In this document: positions 1-13,045 of the stretch, one piece after another | Numbering within the stretch: the stretch's first letter is position 1 | Layout: every line of letters starts with the position of its first letter | IMG/VR virus record: IMGVR_UViG_3300025898_000041 | Location: 1-20,229 of that record | Source: a virus | Length of the DNA stretch: 20,229 bases | Strand: one strand, 5' to 3' | The notes under the pieces: generated by a model | What the model saw: only the letters and a program-made list of their open reading frames with translations | What the model was told of the DNA's origin: nothing | The model's database searches: none | Program-made: the position numbers and the translations under genes

Positions 1-362
1 GAGCCCCTCGGACACGCTTTTCCTTATATCCTAGGTCGGTGTTGGTTTTGTTTGGTTTTTCCTCAAGATCTTTTAGAGGGTTGCCTAACTACGCCAAATG
101 ATGCGTGTCGGAGTCTATCTGAGGCTGCGTTAGGTCATATTATACTGGTCGTGATGGTTCCTCATAGAGGACTTACGGGAAGATTCCCCTGGAAAACAGA
201 CTGAGAATCCGGTTATTCTACTTTTCAACATCAAGTTCGGTCAGTATATCGGGGTTTGATCCTGTGAAGATTCATGCGGTTTCTCTAGAGGATACTCGTG
301 ACGATTCACTGATGTCCTCATAGGAGAAAAAGAATGAGGTGTCTATAGCGTTCGTCCCCCAA

Positions 363-384
363 CCAAAACCAAAACCAAAACCAA
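363..384. repeat. CCAAAA tandem repeat
   Basis: Three perfect head-to-tail CCAAAA units (363-380) are followed by a partial fourth. Related tracts occur inverted at 41-60 and at 2084-2096, the latter just ahead of the leftward gene that starts at 2065. All three copies are in AT-rich non-coding DNA. The function is unknown; a protein-binding site or simple low-complexity sequence are both possible. Confidence 0.6.
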
Positions 385-507
385 CAGAATTCTCTATAGT
401 ATAAAAATTAGGTTAATATATAATAGTTATAGTTACTTTGTAGTCAATCGGTATAGAGTTTCTTTATTAAGAGCTTGATCAAACCCAAACGAAACCAAAT
501 CTGACCC

Positions 508-537
508 TTGTTTACCCTAGTGGGTCCTCTATATAAT
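508..537 (+). promoter_or_regulatory. Promoter for the zinc-ribbon gene, probably leaderless
   Basis: A perfect -10 box TATAAT (532-537) lies 18 bases after a -35-like TTGTTT (508-513). Initiation about seven bases after the -10 would fall on the A of the ATG at 545, so the transcript would have no 5' leader. This fits the absence of a Shine-Dalgarno sequence ahead of that gene. Leaderless mRNAs are common in actinobacteria. The TCCTCTA just before the -10 (525-531) also precedes the -10 of the leftward promoter near 2530. Confidence 0.55.
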
Positions 538-544
538 AAATAGT

Positions 545-928
545 ATGAGCTTCGACATCGTTGACGGGAAAATCATACCACATATTCCGGGTCAGAAAAC
601 GTGTAACATCTGTAACCGTAGCCGGCCCCACAGCTACTTTGCCAAGACTGGAAGGTACCACAAGCCCTACTGCAAGCCCTGTTACAAAGCGTACCAGTCG
701 CAGCGTGGTAAGGTCGACCGCATGGAGAACCGTTCGCTTACCATTGTAGAGTTCCGGGACTATTGGTTGCCCCTCATGATTGAGGCTGGAGAGGCACCCT
801 GGGCTGACCCGGAGTACAAGACAACGGAGGAACTGGTTAAGGAGACAGCCCCTACGCTTTCCGAACAGGAAAAGACGGCGCGGCACAACGCCATCGTTGC
901 GGAGCTGAACCGCACCGTCCCCTCCTAG
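545..928 (+). CDS. Small zinc-ribbon protein, endonuclease VII-like N-terminal zinc site
   Basis: This 127-residue protein has two Cys-x2-Cys knuckles, C20/C23 and C43/C46, separated by a short aromatic and basic segment (residues 30-42). Such a four-cysteine site binds zinc. The spacing and the YCKPC context recall the N-terminal zinc site of phage recombination endonuclease VII and HNH proteins, but no HNH catalytic motif follows. The C-terminal half (60-127) is charged and probably helical. It could be a nucleic-acid-binding or regulatory protein; nuclease activity is not supported. The ATG has no Shine-Dalgarno sequence and sits seven bases after a perfect TATAAT, so leaderless translation is likely. 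The gene ends six bases from the stop of a convergent gene, with no clear terminator between them. Confidence 0.75.
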   Translation: MSFDIVDGKIIPHIPGQKTCNICNRSRPHSYFAKTGRYHKPYCKPCYKAYQSQRGKVDRMENRSLTIVEFRDYWLPLMIEAGEAPWADPEYKTTEELVKETAPTLSEQEKTARHNAIVAELNRTVPS

Positions 929-1273: not shown

Positions 1274-1303
1274 TTCATTTCCCTTTCTGTCGGGAAGGCA
1301 CGA

Positions 1304-1319
1304 TAGGGCCCCCGCCCTA
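1304..1319 (-). other. Intergenic hairpin in the leftward operon
   Basis: On the minus strand TAGGGC pairs perfectly with GCCCTA around a GGGG loop (six base pairs), in the 59-base gap between two leftward genes. No run of T follows, so it is not a standard intrinsic terminator. RNA processing or stability are possible roles. Confidence 0.4.
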
Positions 1320-1332
1320 CCGCACCCACCTA

Positions 1333-1521
1333 TCAGAAAGTGACCGTGGTCTTCCAGTCCTCGTTACACATGGACCCTTCCGGGTTGTCTCCCGGTTCCG
1401 GGTTGCCTGCACACCACATGTCGGACTGCTCGAGCACCCACGACCCGTTCGCGTCCTGACCAATCAACGGCTGACCCTGAAGTTCCGTACCGTGTTTGCG
1501 GCACGTGAAGACGAATTCCAT
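1333..1521 (-). CDS. Cys-rich small protein, function unknown
   Basis: A 62-residue protein starting MEFVFTCRKH. A longer reading exists upstream in the same frame, but the ATG at 1521 is preceded by a good GAAGGG ribosome binding site at seven bases, and the longer form would run through the upstream 52-aa gene, so the short form is preferred. It contains C7, H10, C38 and C52, a possible metal site or disulfide set, and is acidic in its C-terminal half. It follows the 52-aa gene by 13 bases, so the two are probably co-translated. No family is recognised. Confidence 0.6.
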   Translation of the reverse strand: MEFVFTCRKHGTELQGQPLIGQDANGSWVLEQSDMWCAGNPEPGDNPEGSMCNEDWKTTVTF

Positions 1522-1534
1522 TACCGTACCCTTC

Positions 1535-1693
1535 TCAGCACTGACCGTCGCATGCGAACCAACCGACCGTACCCCGCGTTTCGTACCCGCCCACCCCGAC
1601 GATCGTCCACCCCTCGTTCTGGGTCGACTCGTCCCCGTAGTGAACAACAAGAGGTGCGATGACCATCGTGACGATGATCAGGATCTTCTTCAT
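1535..1693 (-). CDS. 52-aa secreted or membrane peptide, function unknown
   Basis: A very short gene, easily missed by length cut-offs. The product begins MKKILIIVTMVIAPLVVHYG: a basic start followed by about 14 hydrophobic residues, which is a signal peptide or membrane anchor. A short polar region with two C-terminal cysteines (the end reads ACDGQC) follows. An AGAAGGG ribosome binding site lies eight bases upstream of the ATG, and the TGA runs into the ribosome binding site of the next gene, so the two genes are likely coupled. The C-x3-C end could form a disulfide outside the membrane. An envelope-acting function is inferred only from the signal-like sequence. Confidence 0.6.
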   Translation of the reverse strand: MKKILIIVTMVIAPLVVHYGDESTQNEGWTIVGVGGYETRGTVGWFACDGQC

Positions 1694-1722
1694 GTTCTAG
1701 ACCCTTCTGGTATGGAAGGAGT

Positions 1723-1746
1723 GGGTACGATCTTTCGATCGTACCC
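1723..1746 (-). other. Perfect 10-bp hairpin with a GAAA loop (minus-strand RNA)
   Basis: GGGTACGATC (1723-1732) and GATCGTACCC (1737-1746) are exact reverse complements around a four-base loop. Read on the minus strand the loop is GAAA, a stable GNRA tetraloop, which suggests that the structure works in RNA of the leftward operon. It lies between the stop of the helix-turn-helix gene and the start of the 52-aa gene. There is no T-run, so it is more likely a processing or stability element, or a weak attenuator, than a classic terminator. Confidence 0.6.
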
Positions 1747-1762
1747 CACCCACCTTACCAGA

Positions 1763-2065
1763 TCAGGACTGGTCGGTCTCGACGTCGTCGATGGTCATCT
1801 GGTTCTCGTCCACGACCGTCTCGGTCTGCACCGACTCGTCCTTCTTGAGCAGGTTCTTCGGAGCGTACTTGTTGTCGAACCAGTTCTTCAGGTCCTCGAC
1901 CGTGACCTTCTTCTTTCCGTCCTCGCCCACGAAGGACTTGATGTAACCCTTCCCGACGTAGGTGTACAGCATCTGCGGGGGCAGCTCCTTTTCCACACCC
2001 AGGTTCGCGATCCACCCGTTGACGACCTTCGTGGCCTGGTACGGGGAGTACGTGGTGTTCAACAT
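1763..2065 (-). CDS. Putative excisionase/MerR-type helix-turn-helix DNA-binding protein
   Basis: A 100-residue protein. Residues 10-70 read like the small winged-helix fold of phage excisionase-type proteins: a helix (ATKVVNGWIANLG), then PPQMLYTYVGKGYIKSF as the turn and recognition segment, a short basic wing (GKKK), and VTVEDLKNWFDNKY as the closing helix. Residues 75-100 form an acidic, probably disordered tail. An AAGGGG ribosome binding site precedes the ATG by six bases. It sits beside the ACCGT repeat array and a block of inverted and direct repeats, so it could be the factor that reads them. The assignment comes from remembered family patterns, so the fold is moderately sure and the target is inference. 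Confidence 0.6.
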   Translation of the reverse strand: MLNTTYSPYQATKVVNGWIANLGVEKELPPQMLYTYVGKGYIKSFVGEDGKKKVTVEDLKNWFDNKYAPKNLLKKDESVQTETVVDENQMTIDDVETDQS

Positions 2066-2155: not shown

Positions 2156-2189
2156 ATTCATGATCTTTTTTGACCGTGTGTACTAGATG

Positions 2190-2230
2190 GTCATATATAG
2201 GTAGGGGTTATTACCGTACCTATATATGAC
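2190..2230. promoter_or_regulatory. 14-bp perfect inverted repeat, possible operator
   Basis: GTCATATATAGGTA (2190-2203) and TACCTATATATGAC (2217-2230) are exact reverse complements, 13 bases apart. The left arm overlaps the -10-like TATATA (2194-2199) of a possible rightward promoter whose -35 would be TTGACC (2170-2175, spacing 18). The element lies between two leftward genes. The AU-rich arms and the lack of a following T-run make an operator more likely than a terminator. A second small dyad, ACGGTC-TAG-GACCGT (2229-2243), abuts it. Confidence 0.5.
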
Positions 2231-2249
2231 GGTCTAGGACCGTACCGTA

Positions 2250-2444
2250 CTAACTGTTACATTCACACTTATTAGTAACGGACCGTACCATTCCACAACC
2301 CGGACAAACCTTACCGGACCGGACGGTCTGGACCTGCTTGGACCGTCCGAACTTGAACGGTGAAGCAGCACGGTCCGTATAAGCACCGTCCTTCATGAAC
2401 CGAAAATCGTTCCTTACCGTACCGTTCAGGTCCTGATAGGACAT
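2250..2444 (-). CDS. Small zinc-ribbon protein within the ACCGT array
   Basis: A 64-residue basic protein, the first gene of the leftward cluster. The C-terminal part has a Cys-Pro-Gly-Cys knuckle (residues 47-50) and a second pair, CEC (about 60-62), which makes a compact zinc site likely. The N-terminal part is rich in basic and aromatic residues. An AAAGGAA ribosome binding site precedes the ATG by about six bases. The gene body itself carries many ACCGT/ACGGT elements, which constrain its codons. A DNA-binding role, even self-regulation through these elements, is attractive but unproven. The family is not recognised. Confidence 0.6.
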   Translation of the reverse strand: MSYQDLNGTVRNDFRFMKDGAYTDRAASPFKFGRSKQVQTVRSGKVCPGCGMVRSVTNKCECNS

Positions 2445-2526
2445 GACCGTTCCTTTCCAGACTGATAGTATCGTTTTTTGACCTGTCCTATTTTTTTGTT
2501 TGCTATTTTGTTTTGCTTGTAACTAT

Positions 2527-2556
2527 ATTATACTAGAGGATCTTGGTCCAAGTCAA
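2527..2556 (-). promoter_or_regulatory. Promoter of the leftward small-gene cluster
   Basis: On the minus strand TTGACT (2556-2551) is followed after 18 bases by a perfect TATAAT (2532-2527), a near-consensus vegetative promoter. TCCTCTA precedes the -10 (2540-2534), as in the promoter at 508-537. The predicted start near 2520 leaves a leader of about 75 A-rich bases before the ATG at 2444. An SD-led first gene follows, in contrast to the leaderless 545 gene. Confidence 0.6.
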
Positions 2557-2698
2557 TGCCCCTGGGTCTCAGATAGAGTAGGAGCATTTTCGCATGTGTT
2601 ACCAGGTCATACCGTACCTTCGTCGGCAGATTTGACCATATAATATACACGAGAAAAGTCGCCAGAAACTGCAGATTTTCCACGTATTTACCAATAAG

Positions 2699-2728
2699 TT
2701 GCGTACATTACGGGTAATAAGCTATCAT
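2699..2728 (+). promoter_or_regulatory. Candidate promoter of the rightward late operon
   Basis: TTGCGT (2699-2704) and TATCAT (2723-2728) are separated by 18 bases. The spacer contains a small dyad, ATTAC-GG-GTAAT (2707-2718), which could be an operator. The same arrangement, TTGTGT-18-TATCAT, occurs at 8597-8626. The first structural-module gene starts at 2771. The boxes are imperfect, so confidence is limited. Confidence 0.4.
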
Positions 2729-2770
2729 ATAGGAAGGAGCTTTGTCCTGAAAGCCTAGGGAGGCGACCAA

Positions 2771-3058
2771 ATGGCTTACGATCCTGAGGCGCTTGATGGA
2801 CTGAGGATGGAGCAGGACCTCACAGGTGCTACTGATGCCGAGCTGGCGAACGAGATCTTCAGTCAGAACGCAGCACGAGCGGCGCTGAAGATCACCCACC
2901 TTGCCTTCAACAGTGCGAATGAGCAGCTTCAGTACCGCGCAGCTACGTACATCACCGACCGCGTCCTCGGCCCTGTGAAGAGTGCAGGCCTGAAGGGCGA
3001 CGATCAGAAGGATGCCCTGGCTGAGTTCGTCAAGGGTATCGTGAACAACAACGCCTAG
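2771..3058 (+). CDS. Putative terminase small subunit-like protein
   Basis: A 95-residue, largely helical protein. The central segment (about 29-70: an asparagine-alanine start, then ALKITHLAF, ANEQLQYRAATYITDRVLGPV) resembles the helical region of actinophage small-terminase-like proteins, where a line such as 'NE-R--AA--I-DR-LG' is typical. Small terminases recognise the packaging site and load the large subunit. A GGGAGG ribosome binding site lies seven bases before the ATG. It is the first gene of the rightward operon, two genes before the terminase large subunit, which supports the idea. It is shorter than most small terminases and no DNA-binding helix-turn-helix is obvious, so it could instead be an unrelated small protein. 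Confidence 0.5.
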   Translation: MAYDPEALDGLRMEQDLTGATDAELANEIFSQNAARAALKITHLAFNSANEQLQYRAATYITDRVLGPVKSAGLKGDDQKDALAEFVKGIVNNNA

Positions 3059-8872: not shown

Positions 8873-10083
8873 CTGGGCATTTTAGCTACCTGTACGATCT
8901 CTCGGGTATCCAGTTTGACGATAATTCGTCGAGCTGGATTCAGGCCTTTCCTGTTGGTAAGTACCAGCATCCCACCTACGGCGAGATCAATGTCACGCCT
9001 GAGCGCGTGAAGGCTTTTGCTGCCAGCGTCAACAATAAGGTTCGTGGCACTGATCTCGATATCGACTACGACCACAAGACGCATACGCAGGTCGCTGCGG
9101 GGTGGGTCAAGCAGGCTGACGCGCGTCCCGACGGTCTCTACCTCCACGTCGACTGGACACCTGCAGCTCGTGACAAGATCAAGAACAAGGAATACCGCTA
9201 CTTCTCGCCTGAGTACACGGATTCCTGGACGGACAACCAGGGTACGACTCACAATGACGTTCTGTTCGGTGGCGCACTCACTAACCGTCCGTTCCTGAAG
9301 AACATTCAGCCCGTCAACCTCTCGGAGGAGATGGCGAAGCTTCTCGCTACGTCTGCACCTCCTGTTTCGCCTAATGATGGTACCGGTACGCGAACTGACC
9401 CGCAGAGCAGTTCGGTAGCGCCACTAAGTGTTGATGACGCCCTCGGCAAGATGGCTAGCCTCCTAGGCTTGGATCCCAATGCTGACCACAACCAGATCCT
9501 GGGCGCGGTCAGTATGCTCGCCAAGGACGAGGCAACTGAGGGCGACGACACTACGAAGGAGCCCGGACAGGGCAACACAAAGGAGACGCAGATGTCCGAG
9601 AAGAAGGGCGGCGAGGGTGGGGCACCTGCGGTGACCCTGTCCGAGGCGCAGCTTATGGAGCACCCGCTCTTCAAGCAGCTGTCCGACAAGATGATGGTGC
9701 TGGAAGCAGCGAACCGCCTTGCCGAGGTGCAGCGTACGCTCAGCAACCTGACCGAAGGCAACAACGTCCTCTCGCCTGCTGCCAAGGAACTGGCTGAGCC
9801 GTTCATGCTCACGCTAGGTTCCGACGCGCACAAGAAGTTCGCCGAGATCCTCCAGATGTTCGTCGAGGGTAAGGGCGTCGTCGAACTGGGTGAGCGAGGC
9901 GTTGCTCGCAAGGTCATTAGCACCGAGGACCAGATGACTGGTGTGAGGGCCTTCAGCGAAGCTGTCAAGAAGGTTCAGGCCGACAACAAGGACCTGACCT
10001 ACGCACAGGCCGTTCACGCAGTCACGCTGAACGACCCTGATCTGTACGAGCAGTACCGGCAGTCCACTCTGGCTGGCGAGTAA
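8869..10083 (+). CDS. Prohead protease with scaffold, Mu gpI-like
   Basis: A 404-residue protein; the GTG start overlaps the upstream TGA. Residues 1-150 match the Mu gpI-type prohead protease: WIQAFPVGKYQHPTYGEI, TDLDIDYDHKTHTQ (61-74), YFSPEY (111-116) and GGALTNRPFLK (134-144). In Mu this protease cleaves the scaffold and head proteins during maturation. About 160-240 is a Ser/Thr/Pro/Gly-rich linker, and about 250-404 is helical scaffold sequence. An internal in-frame ATG at 9592 with its own ribosome binding site gives the scaffold alone, as for the Mu I/Z pair. AAGGGGAGGAGG after the stop serves the next gene. Confidence 0.88.
   Translation: MTGHFSYLYDLSGIQFDDNSSSWIQAFPVGKYQHPTYGEINVTPERVKAFAASVNNKVRGTDLDIDYDHKTHTQVAAGWVKQADARPDGLYLHVDWTPAARDKIKNKEYRYFSPEYTDSWTDNQGTTHNDVLFGGALTNRPFLKNIQPVNLSEEMAKLLATSAPPVSPNDGTGTRTDPQSSSVAPLSVDDALGKMASLLGLDPNADHNQILGAVSMLAKDEATEGDDTTKEPGQGNTKETQMSEKKGGEGGAPAVTLSEAQLMEHPLFKQLSDKMMVLEAANRLAEVQRTLSNLTEGNNVLSPAAKELAEPFMLTLGSDAHKKFAEILQMFVEGKGVVELGERGVARKVISTEDQMTGVRAFSEAVKKVQADNKDLTYAQAVHAVTLNDPDLYEQYRQSTLAGE
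9592..10083 (+). CDS. Nested scaffold protein, Mu gpZ-like (in-frame internal start)
   Basis: Within the protease gene an ATG at 9592 (residue 242, same frame) is preceded by AAAGGAG (9579-9585) at six bases, a ribosome binding site as strong as those of full genes. The 163-residue product begins MSEKKGGEGGAPAVTLSEAQ and is rich in charged helices (LSDKMMVLEAANRLAEVQRTLSNLTEG, HKKFAEILQMFVEG), as expected for a scaffold. Mu gpZ and lambda Nu3 are made in this way from the ends of their protease genes. Without the protease domain, this form could fill the prohead in large numbers while few full-length copies cut it. The start is not tested, but the signal is clear. Confidence 0.75.
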   Translation: MSEKKGGEGGAPAVTLSEAQLMEHPLFKQLSDKMMVLEAANRLAEVQRTLSNLTEGNNVLSPAAKELAEPFMLTLGSDAHKKFAEILQMFVEGKGVVELGERGVARKVISTEDQMTGVRAFSEAVKKVQADNKDLTYAQAVHAVTLNDPDLYEQYRQSTLAGE

Positions 10084-10099
10084 GGGGAGGAGGTAAGTC

Positions 10100-10501
10100 A
10101 TGGGTCCGAACTTCGTTCTTGACAAGGGCTTCAAGGTCAATTCCTCCGCCACTGTCAACCAGTTCACGTGTGCCACGCTGGACACGACCGATGCAAGCGG
10201 TGGTACTGTCACTACTGCAGGTACAGGTACTCGTGTTCTGGGTGTGTACCAGGAAACCCTGGACGCTACCAAGGTGGCGACGGGTAAGGCTACCGTCGAT
10301 GTCCGCATCATGGGTATCACTCGCGGTATCACTGGCGGTGCCATCACCATCTACACGCCTGTGTTCTGCGACGCCTCGGGCAACTTCGTTACGTCAGGTG
10401 CTGCAGGCACCAAGCAGGCTGGTATCGCACTTACGGGTGCGTCCGGTTCTGGTCAGGTCATCGACGTGCTGCTGACGCCGGGTGCGGCAGTCTCCAGCTG
10501 A
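10100..10501 (+). CDS. Capsid decoration protein (DUF2190-like)
   Basis: A 133-residue Gly/Thr/Val-rich beta protein directly before the major capsid gene. The text NSSATVNQFTCATLDTT, RVLGVYQETLDATKVATGKATVDVRIMGITRG and VTSGAAGTKQAGIALTGASGSGQVIDVLL is typical of the small capsid-associated family (DUF2190-type) that lies beside the head genes of many phages. Such proteins bind the outside of the expanded shell and make it stable. A very strong AAGGGGAGGAGG ribosome binding site precedes it and third codon positions are mostly C or G, both fitting high expression. It could instead be an internal or connector-associated protein. Confidence 0.75.
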   Translation: MGPNFVLDKGFKVNSSATVNQFTCATLDTTDASGGTVTTAGTGTRVLGVYQETLDATKVATGKATVDVRIMGITRGITGGAITIYTPVFCDASGNFVTSGAAGTKQAGIALTGASGSGQVIDVLLTPGAAVSS

Positions 10502-10520
10502 CCCCTGAAGGGAGTGAATC

Positions 10521-11549
10521 ATGGCAGTTTACAGCCCTTCTGGGTCTGGTTCCGTCCACATCGATCTGGTGCTCACCCAGATTTCGATCCAGTGGCCGAT
10601 GGACATGGGCTTCGTCGGGCCGGAGCTCTTTCCGGCCGTGCCTGTGGCGAAGCAGTCCAACAAGTACTACATCTTCGACCGTGAGTTCTTCAAGGTGGAA
10701 GCTGCGGACGTTCGTGCGCCTGGTACGGTTGCGAACGAGATTCCTGGCCTGAAGGTCAGCACGGACTCGTACTACGCATCCGAGCACGCCCTTCAGATCG
10801 CGGTCACGGACGAGGAGCGGCAGAACGCCGACATCCCTCTGCAGCCTGATCAGGATGCTGTCGAGCTCGTCACTGACCGCATCATGTTCAGCCGCGAACT
10901 CAACATGATGAACATGGCGCGTACGATCGGTAACTACGCGTCTGGCAACAGTGTCACGCTGTCTGGTACTGCTCAGTGGAACAGTGCAAACTACGCTACG
11001 TCCAACCCGATCTCGGATGTGAAGACGGGCATCAGGGCGATCAATGCGAAGATCTTCAAGAACCCGAACCTCGCCATCTTCCCGTACCAGGTGATGACGC
11101 AGCTCGAGGACCACCCGGACTTCATCGAGCGCATCAAGTACTCGGAGCGGGCGATCCTCACTCCGGACATCATCTCCTCGGTTCTGGGTATCGATCGAGT
11201 TCTGGTTCCGGGTGTCGGCTACTCCACCGCTGGTGCAGGTGTGTCCGTCACCTCGGCGAACATGACCTACATGTGGGGCAAGGACGTCATCCTCGCCTAC
11301 GTGCCTGGTGCTCCCGGCATCAAGAAGCTCGGATTCGGCTACGAGTTCGTGTGGGGCTTCGGCGGTGGTCAGGCGCGAGACAACGGCAAGACTGGAGGCT
11401 CCTCGCAGTCCCAGGTCATCGACCGTTGGCGCGAGGACCCGCGGGCATCGGATCTCATCCGTGTCCGGCGGCGCTACGACCTCAAGCTGGTCGGCGTCGA
11501 GAGCAATCTGCTCATCACTGGCTACCTCATCCAGAACGCGGTGGCCTGA
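10521..11549 (+). CDS. Major capsid protein
   Basis: A 342-residue protein expected to have the HK97 fold. It opens with a shell-protein pattern: IDLVLTQISIQW, then GFVGPELFPAVPVAKQSNKYYIFDREFF (about 28-57). It ends in RRRYDLKLVGVESNLLITGYLIQNAVA, like the C-terminal part of many capsid proteins. The middle has the spine helix region (about 110-140, AVELVTDRIMFSRELNMMNMARTIG) and the strand LAIFPYQVMTQLEDHPDFIERIKYSERAIL. Its position after protease, scaffold and decoration genes supports the call. GAAGGGAG precedes the ATG by about six bases. The codons are nearly all C- or G-ending, unlike the following connector genes, which fits very high expression. Confidence 0.9.
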   Translation: MAVYSPSGSGSVHIDLVLTQISIQWPMDMGFVGPELFPAVPVAKQSNKYYIFDREFFKVEAADVRAPGTVANEIPGLKVSTDSYYASEHALQIAVTDEERQNADIPLQPDQDAVELVTDRIMFSRELNMMNMARTIGNYASGNSVTLSGTAQWNSANYATSNPISDVKTGIRAINAKIFKNPNLAIFPYQVMTQLEDHPDFIERIKYSERAILTPDIISSVLGIDRVLVPGVGYSTAGAGVSVTSANMTYMWGKDVILAYVPGAPGIKKLGFGYEFVWGFGGGQARDNGKTGGSSQSQVIDRWREDPRASDLIRVRRRYDLKLVGVESNLLITGYLIQNAVA

Positions 11550-11562
11550 GAAAGGAGAGAAC

Positions 11563-11922
11563 ATGGCTTACTTCGCCAAGACTCCGATCCAGCACGGTCT
11601 GGATTCCGGAGACGTCGTGACGCTGCAGGTCGGCGACGAGCTCACCGAGGAACACGGTTTCAGCCAGAACGACATCGACACTCTTCTCGCTTCGGACTCC
11701 ATCGAGGAAGGCGACGAGTACTCGGGTGAGCGCCCTGTGGGTCCCATGGAGCGTGTCACCACTGCTCACGGTGTCGAGGGACAGACCCTCCCGTCCGGTG
11801 CTCCCGAGACTCCGCAGGAGGCCGCGGAGGCTGATGCAGTGGCGACCGAACCGTCGCTGCAGGAGAACCCTAACGCCGAGGGTGTCGACGAGCGTACTGA
11901 GGACACCGAGAACACGGAGTGA
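11563..11922 (+). CDS. Acidic small head-associated protein, function unknown
   Basis: A 119-residue protein. The ATG at 11563 has AAAGGAGA in front of it; a longer open frame upstream overlaps the capsid gene and was rejected. Residues 1-50 form a small folded unit with GDVVTLQVGDELTEEHGFSQNDIDTLLASDSI. From about 55 onward the chain is strongly acidic and rich in Glu, Thr, Ala and Pro, probably disordered. Proteins of this kind lie just after the capsid gene in several actinophages. Their role is unknown, but binding to capsid or connector is plausible. The next gene follows eight bases later. Confidence 0.7.
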   Translation: MAYFAKTPIQHGLDSGDVVTLQVGDELTEEHGFSQNDIDTLLASDSIEEGDEYSGERPVGPMERVTTAHGVEGQTLPSGAPETPQEAAEADAVATEPSLQENPNAEGVDERTEDTENTE

Positions 11923-11930
11923 GGTGAAGC

Positions 11931-12380
11931 ATGTCGCGTATCACGGTTCAGCAGGCGCAGTCTTGGGCTGAGAAGACCAAGCTGCCTATTACTGTCCTTG
12001 ATGCCGACTTGCTTACTCAGGTCGAGAACCAGGTGCTTGGCATGCTGACCGAGGGCTTCGATGTCAGCACCTGGTCCGACTCTTCTTCCACGCCACCTAT
12101 CGTACAGCAAGTCATTTCAATGCTGTACATTTCCTGGTTCTATAACAGGCAGTACTCGGAAGACCAGGAACATGTTAACGTCTATGCCACGCTTCTCCGT
12201 GCTGAGGCAGAGTCGTTGATGGCAGGCCTTTTGAACGGGTCTGTTATCATGCCTGGCCTAGTAGTTTCTGCTTCGGATGGACCGACATTCTACCCGAATG
12301 ATTCATCCTCCGCACAGCAACCAACGGACCTCGACAGTTCGTTGGGTGATGCTGCTTTCTCTGTGGGGAAGGTGTTCTAA
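11931..12380 (+). CDS. Head-tail connector (adaptor) protein
   Basis: A 149-residue protein with GAGGTGAAG just ahead of its ATG. The helical core (about 15-95) contains ADLLTQVENQVLGMLTEGFDVSTW, TPPIVQQVISMLYISWFYNRQYSED and YATLLRAEAESLMAGLLNG. This layout is like the adaptor proteins (Mu gp36 / HK97 gp6 type) that bind below the portal and seat the tail. The gene lies at the usual place between the capsid and tail genes and shares a stop-start base with the following morphogenesis gene. The exact family is not certain because the sequences of these proteins diverge. Confidence 0.7.
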   Translation: MSRITVQQAQSWAEKTKLPITVLDADLLTQVENQVLGMLTEGFDVSTWSDSSSTPPIVQQVISMLYISWFYNRQYSEDQEHVNVYATLLRAEAESLMAGLLNGSVIMPGLVVSASDGPTFYPNDSSSAQQPTDLDSSLGDAAFSVGKVF

Positions 12381-13045
12381 TGACAGCTCCCCGTAAAGAC
12401 TCCGGAATCCTTGCGTTTGACTTCTCGCCAACGATTGGCATCCTGGCTCGTGATGTCGACAAGATGGGTGTTGACATCCGTTCGTTCAGAGTGCCTCTGA
12501 CGAATGCAGTCCGCAATGTCATGATTCCGTCGATTCAGCAGAACTTCTCTTCAGGTGGTCGTCCTGACACTTGGGTGCCTTTGTCTGAGTCTACACTGCT
12601 TATTCGTAGCCGTGAAGGTTCAGGCAGCACTACTCTAGTCCGGTCTGGTGCATTGAAGCGTAACATGGGCTTCATGACCATGTGGGACATTACTCAGGAC
12701 TACGCAATCGTTAAGCAGCTGCCTGATCGTGTCTGGTATGGTGCCATACACCAGTCAGGTTACGATACTACTACAGGTGCGCAGATTCAGAGTAAGATCA
12801 AGTCTGCTGCCAAGCGTGGTGTGAAGCTTAGTGCAGGTAAGGCAGCACAGCAAGTCATGGCCGAGCTGGACGCTAAGCTTAAGGTCGCCATGGCTTCAGG
12901 CACTTCAGCTGCTTCTAGCTCTGACCGTGCGCATGCTATTCCCGCGCGCCCGTTCGTGATGTTTCAGGATGAGGACTTGGATAAGATTGATGCTGAGTTC
13001 GATTCCTGGATTGCCATGCGGGTTGCTGCTGCAGGGTTTGGGTGA
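12380..13045 (+). CDS. Virion morphogenesis protein, Mu gpG / P2 gpS-like
   Basis: A 221-residue protein; its start overlaps the upstream stop (TAATG). Its layout fits the phage virion morphogenesis family: a basic helix at 43-58 (NAVRNVMIPSIQQNFSSG), GRPDTWVPLSESTL, LVRSGALKRNM, an aromatic-rich strand and the late motif IPARPFVMFQDEDLDKI (about 188-204). Proteins of this group act at the junction of head and tail and help tail completion. The position between adaptor and tail terminator supports this. An inserted Lys/Ala-rich helix (about 135-175) makes it longer than some relatives. The exact step is inferred from the family. Confidence 0.78.
   Translation: MTAPRKDSGILAFDFSPTIGILARDVDKMGVDIRSFRVPLTNAVRNVMIPSIQQNFSSGGRPDTWVPLSESTLLIRSREGSGSTTLVRSGALKRNMGFMTMWDITQDYAIVKQLPDRVWYGAIHQSGYDTTTGAQIQSKIKSAAKRGVKLSAGKAAQQVMAELDAKLKVAMASGTSAASSSDRAHAIPARPFVMFQDEDLDKIDAEFDSWIAMRVAAAGFG

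Follow-up and report, generated by a model that had tools for sequence, protein, structure and literature searches.

A cluster of the short word ACCGT/ACGGT in a fragment of a soil siphophage genome is real, local, selected and oriented. Its copies exceed chance expectation, keep to one region and, in the longer form of the word, share a common orientation; they are retained with turnover in one clade of relatives, and within a small zinc-ribbon gene they carry the imprint of selection on the nucleic acid. The explanation preferred here, held at a probability of roughly 0.4 from sequence comparison, is a regulatory binding-site array with a phage protein as its reader, for which the zinc-ribbon protein is one possibility. 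Such an array had been proposed in the initial annotation, with iterons or dispersed stoperators as models; the array survives as non-random, local, oriented, kept in relatives and nucleic-acid-selected, whereas neither model is supported.

Setting, density and orientation of the cluster

The window, i.e., the whole stretch of DNA analysed, is an IMG/VR record of 20,229 bases, complete as a record and representing a siphophage fragment (soil virus). Rightward late genes run from 2771 (terS, TerL, Mu-type portal, protease, capsid and tail), while the leftward operon comprises ORFs for the zinc-ribbon protein (2444-2250), the winged-HTH protein (2065-1763) and small products (1693-1535, 1521-1333 and 1273-935). 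A nucleotide search of the window against the phage collection gave 0 matches, tblastn with the HTH and zinc-ribbon proteins matched no isolated phage, and the host scan of genome contigs returned a single match, an unclassified bacterial scaffold. An actinobacterial setting is presumed solely from the nearest TerL matches. The -10 block of the leftward promoter is conserved in 5/5 contigs of the motif-bearing clade and (TATAATATAGTTAC, window 2527-2545) can still be made out in cousins as distant as any examined (L019, L021, L051 and L096). At the left end, window 1-545 holds few ORFs, and the TTGG(T)-rich and AACCAAAACC tracts at its ends can pair across ~320 bp, the counterpart of these tracts in L017 being GGGTTT/AAACCC. 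The gene at 545 is apparently leaderless, its ATG following TATAAT by a few bp, and its product weakly matches the HNH/endonuclease VII type.

Table 1. Coordinates of the motif copies, genes and signals of the leftward region and late operon start
Feature	Position	Strand	Remarks
Core cluster, 14 ACCGT/ACGGT in 278 bp	2173..2450	.	
GGTACGGT copy between SD and ATG of 62-aa leftward ORF	1523..1530	-	lost in L017
GGTACGGT copy within 52-aa leftward ORF	1566..1573	-	no excess over codon expectation
Intercistronic hairpin, HTH stop to next SD	1706..1765	-	stem GGGTACGGT...ACCGTACCC in L017, L020
Winged-HTH protein gene, 100 aa	1763..2065	-	HTH_17 / BldC-Xis-MerR-like predicted fold
Hairpin/dyad right after zinc-ribbon stop, motif copy at loop	2184..2237	-	-23.6 kcal/mol, z -6.3
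GGTACGGT copy in 3' hairpin of zinc-ribbon gene	2213..2220	-	same columns in L014, L018
Two overlapping GTACGGT, 5 bp apart, just past zinc-ribbon stop codon	2239..2250	-	
Zinc-ribbon protein gene, 64 aa	2250..2444	-	C-x2-C-x9-C-x-C
GGTACGGT copy in zinc-ribbon gene, frame G GTA CGG T	2282..2289	-	same columns in L014, L018, L020
GGTACGGT and overlapping ACGGT in zinc-ribbon gene, frame GGT ACG GT	2416..2425	-	5/5 contigs
ACGGT between Shine-Dalgarno (GGAAAGGA) and zinc-ribbon ATG	2446..2450	-	
Leftward promoter of zinc-ribbon gene, TTGACT-N18-TATAAT	2527..2556	-	11/12 consensus (sigma-70)
GGTACGGT copy 55 bp upstream of leftward promoter -35	2611..2618	-	
Probable terminase small subunit gene, late operon start	2771..3058	+	phrog_2538, E 0.009

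The recount of the core cluster agrees exactly with the 14 copies first reported, as 10 ACCGT and 4 ACGGT on the + strand. Since the whole-window total of 74 predicts 1.02 per 278 bp, the accompanying estimate of fewer than one was slightly optimistic, while a density beyond chance stands. Among 1,200 simulated genomes (whole-window Markov models of orders 1-3, 400 each), the maximum in any 278 bp was 7 ACCGT/ACGGT, against the 14 observed. The longer word ACCGTACC occurs seven times within 1096 bp (1523-2618; starts 1523, 1566, 2213, 2239, 2282, 2416 and 2611), again exactly as first counted, against a simulated maximum of 3 in such a span, and the rest of the record holds one more copy, at 10722 on the opposite strand. 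Rather than being evenly spread, the motif is thus concentrated in ~1.1 kb; the late operon shows no comparable motif cluster, which bears out the original impression, and scans of G001 (42 kb), G002 (25 kb) and G003 (19 kb) in 1-kb bins found no other bin that approaches the cluster in motif density.

Against shuffles of the local region, the excess persists under both a first-order (P<0.001) and a second-order model (P 0.002 or less). Under a third-order model it fades for the 5-mer in 2173-2450 (P 0.2) because such a model already holds most of the word, which is a limit and not a refutation; the 8-mer in 1300-2650 still stands out (P 0.003).

ACSGT differs from its own reverse complement at the centre base alone, and strand is therefore informative only for longer words. 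The reported presence on both strands consequently holds for the 5-mer with little meaning and does not hold for the 8-mer, as clustered ACCGTACC copies occupy the + strand exclusively, so that GGTACGGT always lies on the sense strand of the leftward genes. Strand counts of ACCGTAC in the zinc-ribbon/HTH interval are 6:0, 6:0, 6:0 and 4:0 (window, L014, L018 and L020, respectively), and pooled flanks give GGtACGGTmC on the leftward-sense strand. Same-strand spacing (26, 5, 38, 134 and 195 bp) has no helical phase or iteron regularity, which speaks against the iteron reading.

Selection in the zinc-ribbon gene and turnover among relatives

The zinc-ribbon gene contains 8 ACSGT against a mean of 3.3 under synonymous-codon permutation (0/3,000 trials reach 8), and GTACGGT occurs in two of its reading frames; the other leftward genes show no motif excess under codon permutation. 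Enrichment beyond protein and codon needs, in two frames, therefore argues for selection on the nucleic acid.

Relatives were collected by TerL, zinc-ribbon and HTH scans of viral contigs. The interval is present in five distinct contigs, all metagenomic fragments (the window, L014, L017, L018 and L020; identity there from 94-98% down to about 68%), with a sixth, L013, not counted as distinct at 99.7% identity to the window. Judging by these contigs, the cluster is retained in a small clade of uncultivated siphophages, though its copies move. ACCGTAC/ACCGTACC heads the 7/8-mer ranking of the zinc-ribbon/HTH interval in each of four contigs (window, L014, L018 and L020), and in dinucleotide shuffles the top 8-mer reaches P<0.001 in the window, L014 (as the overlapping word GTACGGTA) and L018, and P 0.005 in L020, whose top 7-mer is CCGTACC (P 0.013). 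Within the zinc-ribbon gene, copies have been gained at other codons and frames, V-R-S in L018 and G-T-V in L020. Copies without a window counterpart at the same column number 2-3 in L018 and 2 in L020, where 0.06-0.5 would be expected. The 2611 site is kept as GTACGGT in L014 and L017, has a copy nearby in L018 and none in L020.

The irregular spacing counts against the array reading. So does L017, in which both genes are present and the zinc-ribbon protein is 76% identical, yet GTACGGT-type sites in the interval number just two and dinucleotide shuffles give no significant clustering of any 8-mer; its copies sit instead in the HTH 3' hairpin, where the stem is GGGTACGGT/ACCGTACCC. Likewise, cousins L019, L021 and L024 (~64% TerL identity), together with L096, keep both genes and lack the motif (the L024 zinc-ribbon being identified by eye). 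Absence from relatives that keep both genes, raised at the outset as a danger to the proposal, is thus found in these four, while the closer contigs retain the motif. Top 8-mers of the interval are not significant in L024 and L096 by local dinucleotide shuffles. Word clusters discarded as arrays elsewhere include those of L046 (a protein repeat) and the (GACT)n of L096 (a microsatellite), and those at the HTH-family loci of L093, L094, L114, L125, L126 and L128 were set aside, L093 looking protein-coded.

A functionless origin, in which a locally biased, duplication-prone stretch lets words drift by slippage and shared ancestry, is unlikely. It would accommodate the overlapping copies 5 bp apart, which resemble slippage, the weakening of the excess under the third-order local model, and the weak clusters of other words that cousins show in the same interval (TACCTA in L021 and AGTACCTA in L019, P 0.005-0.01), though the significance of these words would be lost on correcting for the number of word lengths used. 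Nevertheless, drift hardly accounts for the uniform orientation, for copies in two frames that the codons do not require, or for gains made separately in L018 and in L020.

Candidate readers and competing explanations

As a binding-site array, the cluster would be a cis-acting set of short asymmetric candidate sites, GGtACGGTmC on the leftward-sense strand, located where the leftward early operon begins and diverges from the late operon. The sites would be bound as DNA by a phage-encoded protein of clade-private specificity. The simplest such reader would be the zinc-ribbon protein, sitting on its own gene and promoter flank, and so lowering early transcription of the leftward genes or setting its timing; a second candidate is the winged-HTH protein encoded next to it.

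Both gene calls of the initial annotation are upheld, the HTH as a winged-HTH by predicted fold and the 64-aa gene by its conserved C-x2-C-x9-C-x-C, but the two do not fare equally as candidate binders. Identity of the zinc-ribbon protein is 62-97% in motif-bearing contigs, against 31-45% in zinc-ribbon relatives without the motif. As this protein differs strongly between relatives with and without the motif and has the sites packed into its own gene, autoregulation would be the most economical guess, although the covariation may reflect phylogeny alone; the AlphaFold model of the protein is unreliable (pLDDT 50). The HTH product is modelled by AlphaFold2 with pLDDT 90-95 over residues 11-70 (about 90 or more), and its predicted fold is that of a winged HTH nearest to BldC, Pukovnik Xis and MerR proteins (BldC Foldseek probability 1.00 but E 0.03; VIA Z 7.0; Pukovnik Xis Z 6.7). 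HTH_17 was found in 3/12 HTH-family members, and a sequence search of the family against solved structures gave no match. The core of the HTH protein, QMxYTYVxKGYI, hardly differs in relatives without the motif, making this protein a weaker candidate reader unless other residues set specificity. In a side observation, L030 carries three tandem HTH-family genes (295-528, 1551-1925 and 2696-3022, - strand).

TerS is a third candidate reader, because terS is adjacent and Cluster EF genomes are circularly permuted. Some pac phages (P1, SPP1) have short repeats in or beside terS that serve terminase recognition. A pac-type site, with oriented repeats to which the small terminase subunit would bind and so initiate headful packaging, draws support from the start of terS 150-600 bp to the right of the repeats, from the single direction of all clustered 8-mer copies and from clade-private site specificity, usual for terminases; Cluster EF, with the circularly permuted genomes, contains the nearest abundant isolated relatives by TerL (35%) (PMC7302621). 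It is nonetheless quite unlikely, as the repeats lie within a leftward early gene and flank its promoter, the 1523 and 1566 copies are 1.2 kb off, and the close relative L017 has few interval sites.

A translation or RNA element of the SAS/ESAS type is likewise a slim prospect. Here GGnACGGT would belong to a start-associated box, and the extra copies would bind an RNA-binding protein or ribosome-linked factor. Two leftward starts do carry the motif between SD and ATG (GGAAAGGAACGGTCATG at 2444 and AAGGGTACGGTAATG at 1521), the orientation is on the sense strand, and SAS/ESAS are known from Clusters K and EF; however, only 2/5 leftward starts carry the motif, one of these losing it in L017, the majority of copies are intragenic or downstream of a gene, and the copies have no RNA structural context in common. 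Motif copies are no more single-stranded than the remainder of the predicted mRNA and show no loop preference in its predicted pairing, so that an RNA-loop target is unsupported. Moreover, since the 2611 copy lies upstream of the promoter and is partly conserved, DNA is favoured over an RNA/mRNA site.

A replication origin with iterons and AT-rich DNA on its flanks is very unlikely: the flanks are indeed AT-rich and the cumulative GC skew of a 24.9-kb relative has its minimum in the matching 1-kb bin, but the skew is confounded by divergent transcription, which turns at this very place and produces a like signal, the spacing is aperiodic and no replication initiator gene is adjacent.

Described repeat systems, a cousin array and further observations

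Private early-region repeats in actinophages have been described since 2011, and clade-private repeats are also present in Clusters EC, EF, EG and EI (PMC7302621). While the broad kind is thus known, the window array departs from each testable named family in a defining feature, and its word and intragenic packing are new. Cluster A mycobacteriophage stoperators (L5, Bxb1) are 13-bp immunity-repressor sites scattered over the genome, with a consensus that differs between related phages (PMC6550527). The window sites share with them a short asymmetric form and mostly one orientation relative to transcription, but are 8 bp long and packed in ~1.1 kb, many in one gene. This confinement speaks against dispersed stoperators. 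Searches of four related contigs, themselves fragments, for the families PF00589, PF00239 and PF01381 found no integrase, resolvase or HTH_3 repressor.

SAS/ESAS are lineage-specific repeated words among the non-structural genes of Cluster K mycobacteriophages (PMC3203893) and of Cluster EF Microbacterium phages (PMC7302621). Two window copies likewise lie between SD and start codon; whereas virtually all SAS/ESAS copies are start-adjacent, only 1523 (8-mer) and 2446 (5-mer) are so in the window, several copies lie in coding DNA, and the word differs (GGtACGGTmC vs GGGAAAGGACCCC / GGGATAGGAGCCC). Cluster O mycobacteriophages carry 17-bp full palindromes genome-wide, with no clear preferred direction (PMC4351075); these resemble the window site in occupying intergenic and coding DNA and in being private to one cluster, unlike it in that the window 8-mer is asymmetric and clustered. 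For the repeats of Clusters K, O, EC, EF, EG and EI no reader protein is known (PMC3203893, PMC4351075, PMC7302621), while a compact array in one 64-aa gene, with few candidate readers and a codon-level test, makes the reader question directly testable.

BldC-family sites have units every 9 bp (consensus AATTNNNNC), the whiI site being CAATTCGGACAATTCGGACA, head-to-tail at 9 bp (PMC5859096). The window resembles them in its asymmetric, short, directional unit and in the gene for a protein of predicted BldC-like fold that adjoins the array, and differs in that its units are irregularly spaced and GC-rich; no 9-10 bp spacing peak, and hence no BldC direct-repeat register, is seen in the window clade. 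A separate array lies in the cousin L051 (3300011442_000002, 57% TerL, ~0-5500), and further in L073-L076 (whole contig), L037, L039, L040, L042, L044 and L045. In this group, AAATCGGACAT-type words occur in tens of copies across a ~13-kb leftward early region and are almost absent elsewhere in 75.8 kb; most copies are on the leftward sense strand, with the orientation flipping in the upstream leader. About seven leftward gene starts have a ATGTCCGA..TCGGACAT hairpin and AGGAGACAAAATG in a SAS/ESAS-like layout. The spacing of same-strand CGGAC units has peaks at 9 bp (19 pairs) and close to its multiples; five loci together hold 15 pairs spaced by 9-10 bp, where a jitter null gives 3.9, with a maximum of 12 in 2,000. 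This ~9-bp periodicity matches the Streptomyces BldC direct-repeat site (AT-rich half and C); no HTH_17 protein was found in the group. By analogy only, the register supports directional arrays read by a BldC-like protein in the superfamily and suggests one concrete reader class. A loose BldC-like scan also recovered tandem AAATCGGACAWWTCGGACAT in 37 viral contigs (L134-L170), most with a single site, and dense in 2/37 (L147 and L166, the records of L051 and L039).

A wider extrapolation, which is quite doubtful, holds that the superfamily repeatedly evolves clade-private, transcription-oriented early arrays (GGTACGGT in the window, AAATCGGACAT in L051), read by small zinc-ribbon/winged-HTH proteins and silencing the early region. 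The readers, the phage's own or host BldC, would cover the early region and switch it off at the onset of late transcription; if true, this would amount to stoperator-like silencing in phages that lack any recognisable integrase or immunity repressor.

Apart from the arrays, several hairpins were noted in the leftward operon. The outer stem of 2184-2237 has three pairs changed on both sides between the window and L017. A second stop-to-SD intercistronic hairpin lies at 1281-1340 (- strand), and both this and the 1706-1765 hairpin are conserved in L014, L017 and L020, the stem of the latter showing an A-U to G-C change in L017 and L020; Rfam gave only a sub-threshold miRNA-like match on the 1706-1762 hairpin (E 0.18). 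Finally, the 42-kb relative L067 encodes the 7-deazaguanine genes QueC, QueD-like PTPS and GTP cyclohydrolase I at 9778-12536 (+ strand), pointing to possible modification of its own DNA or of host tRNA.
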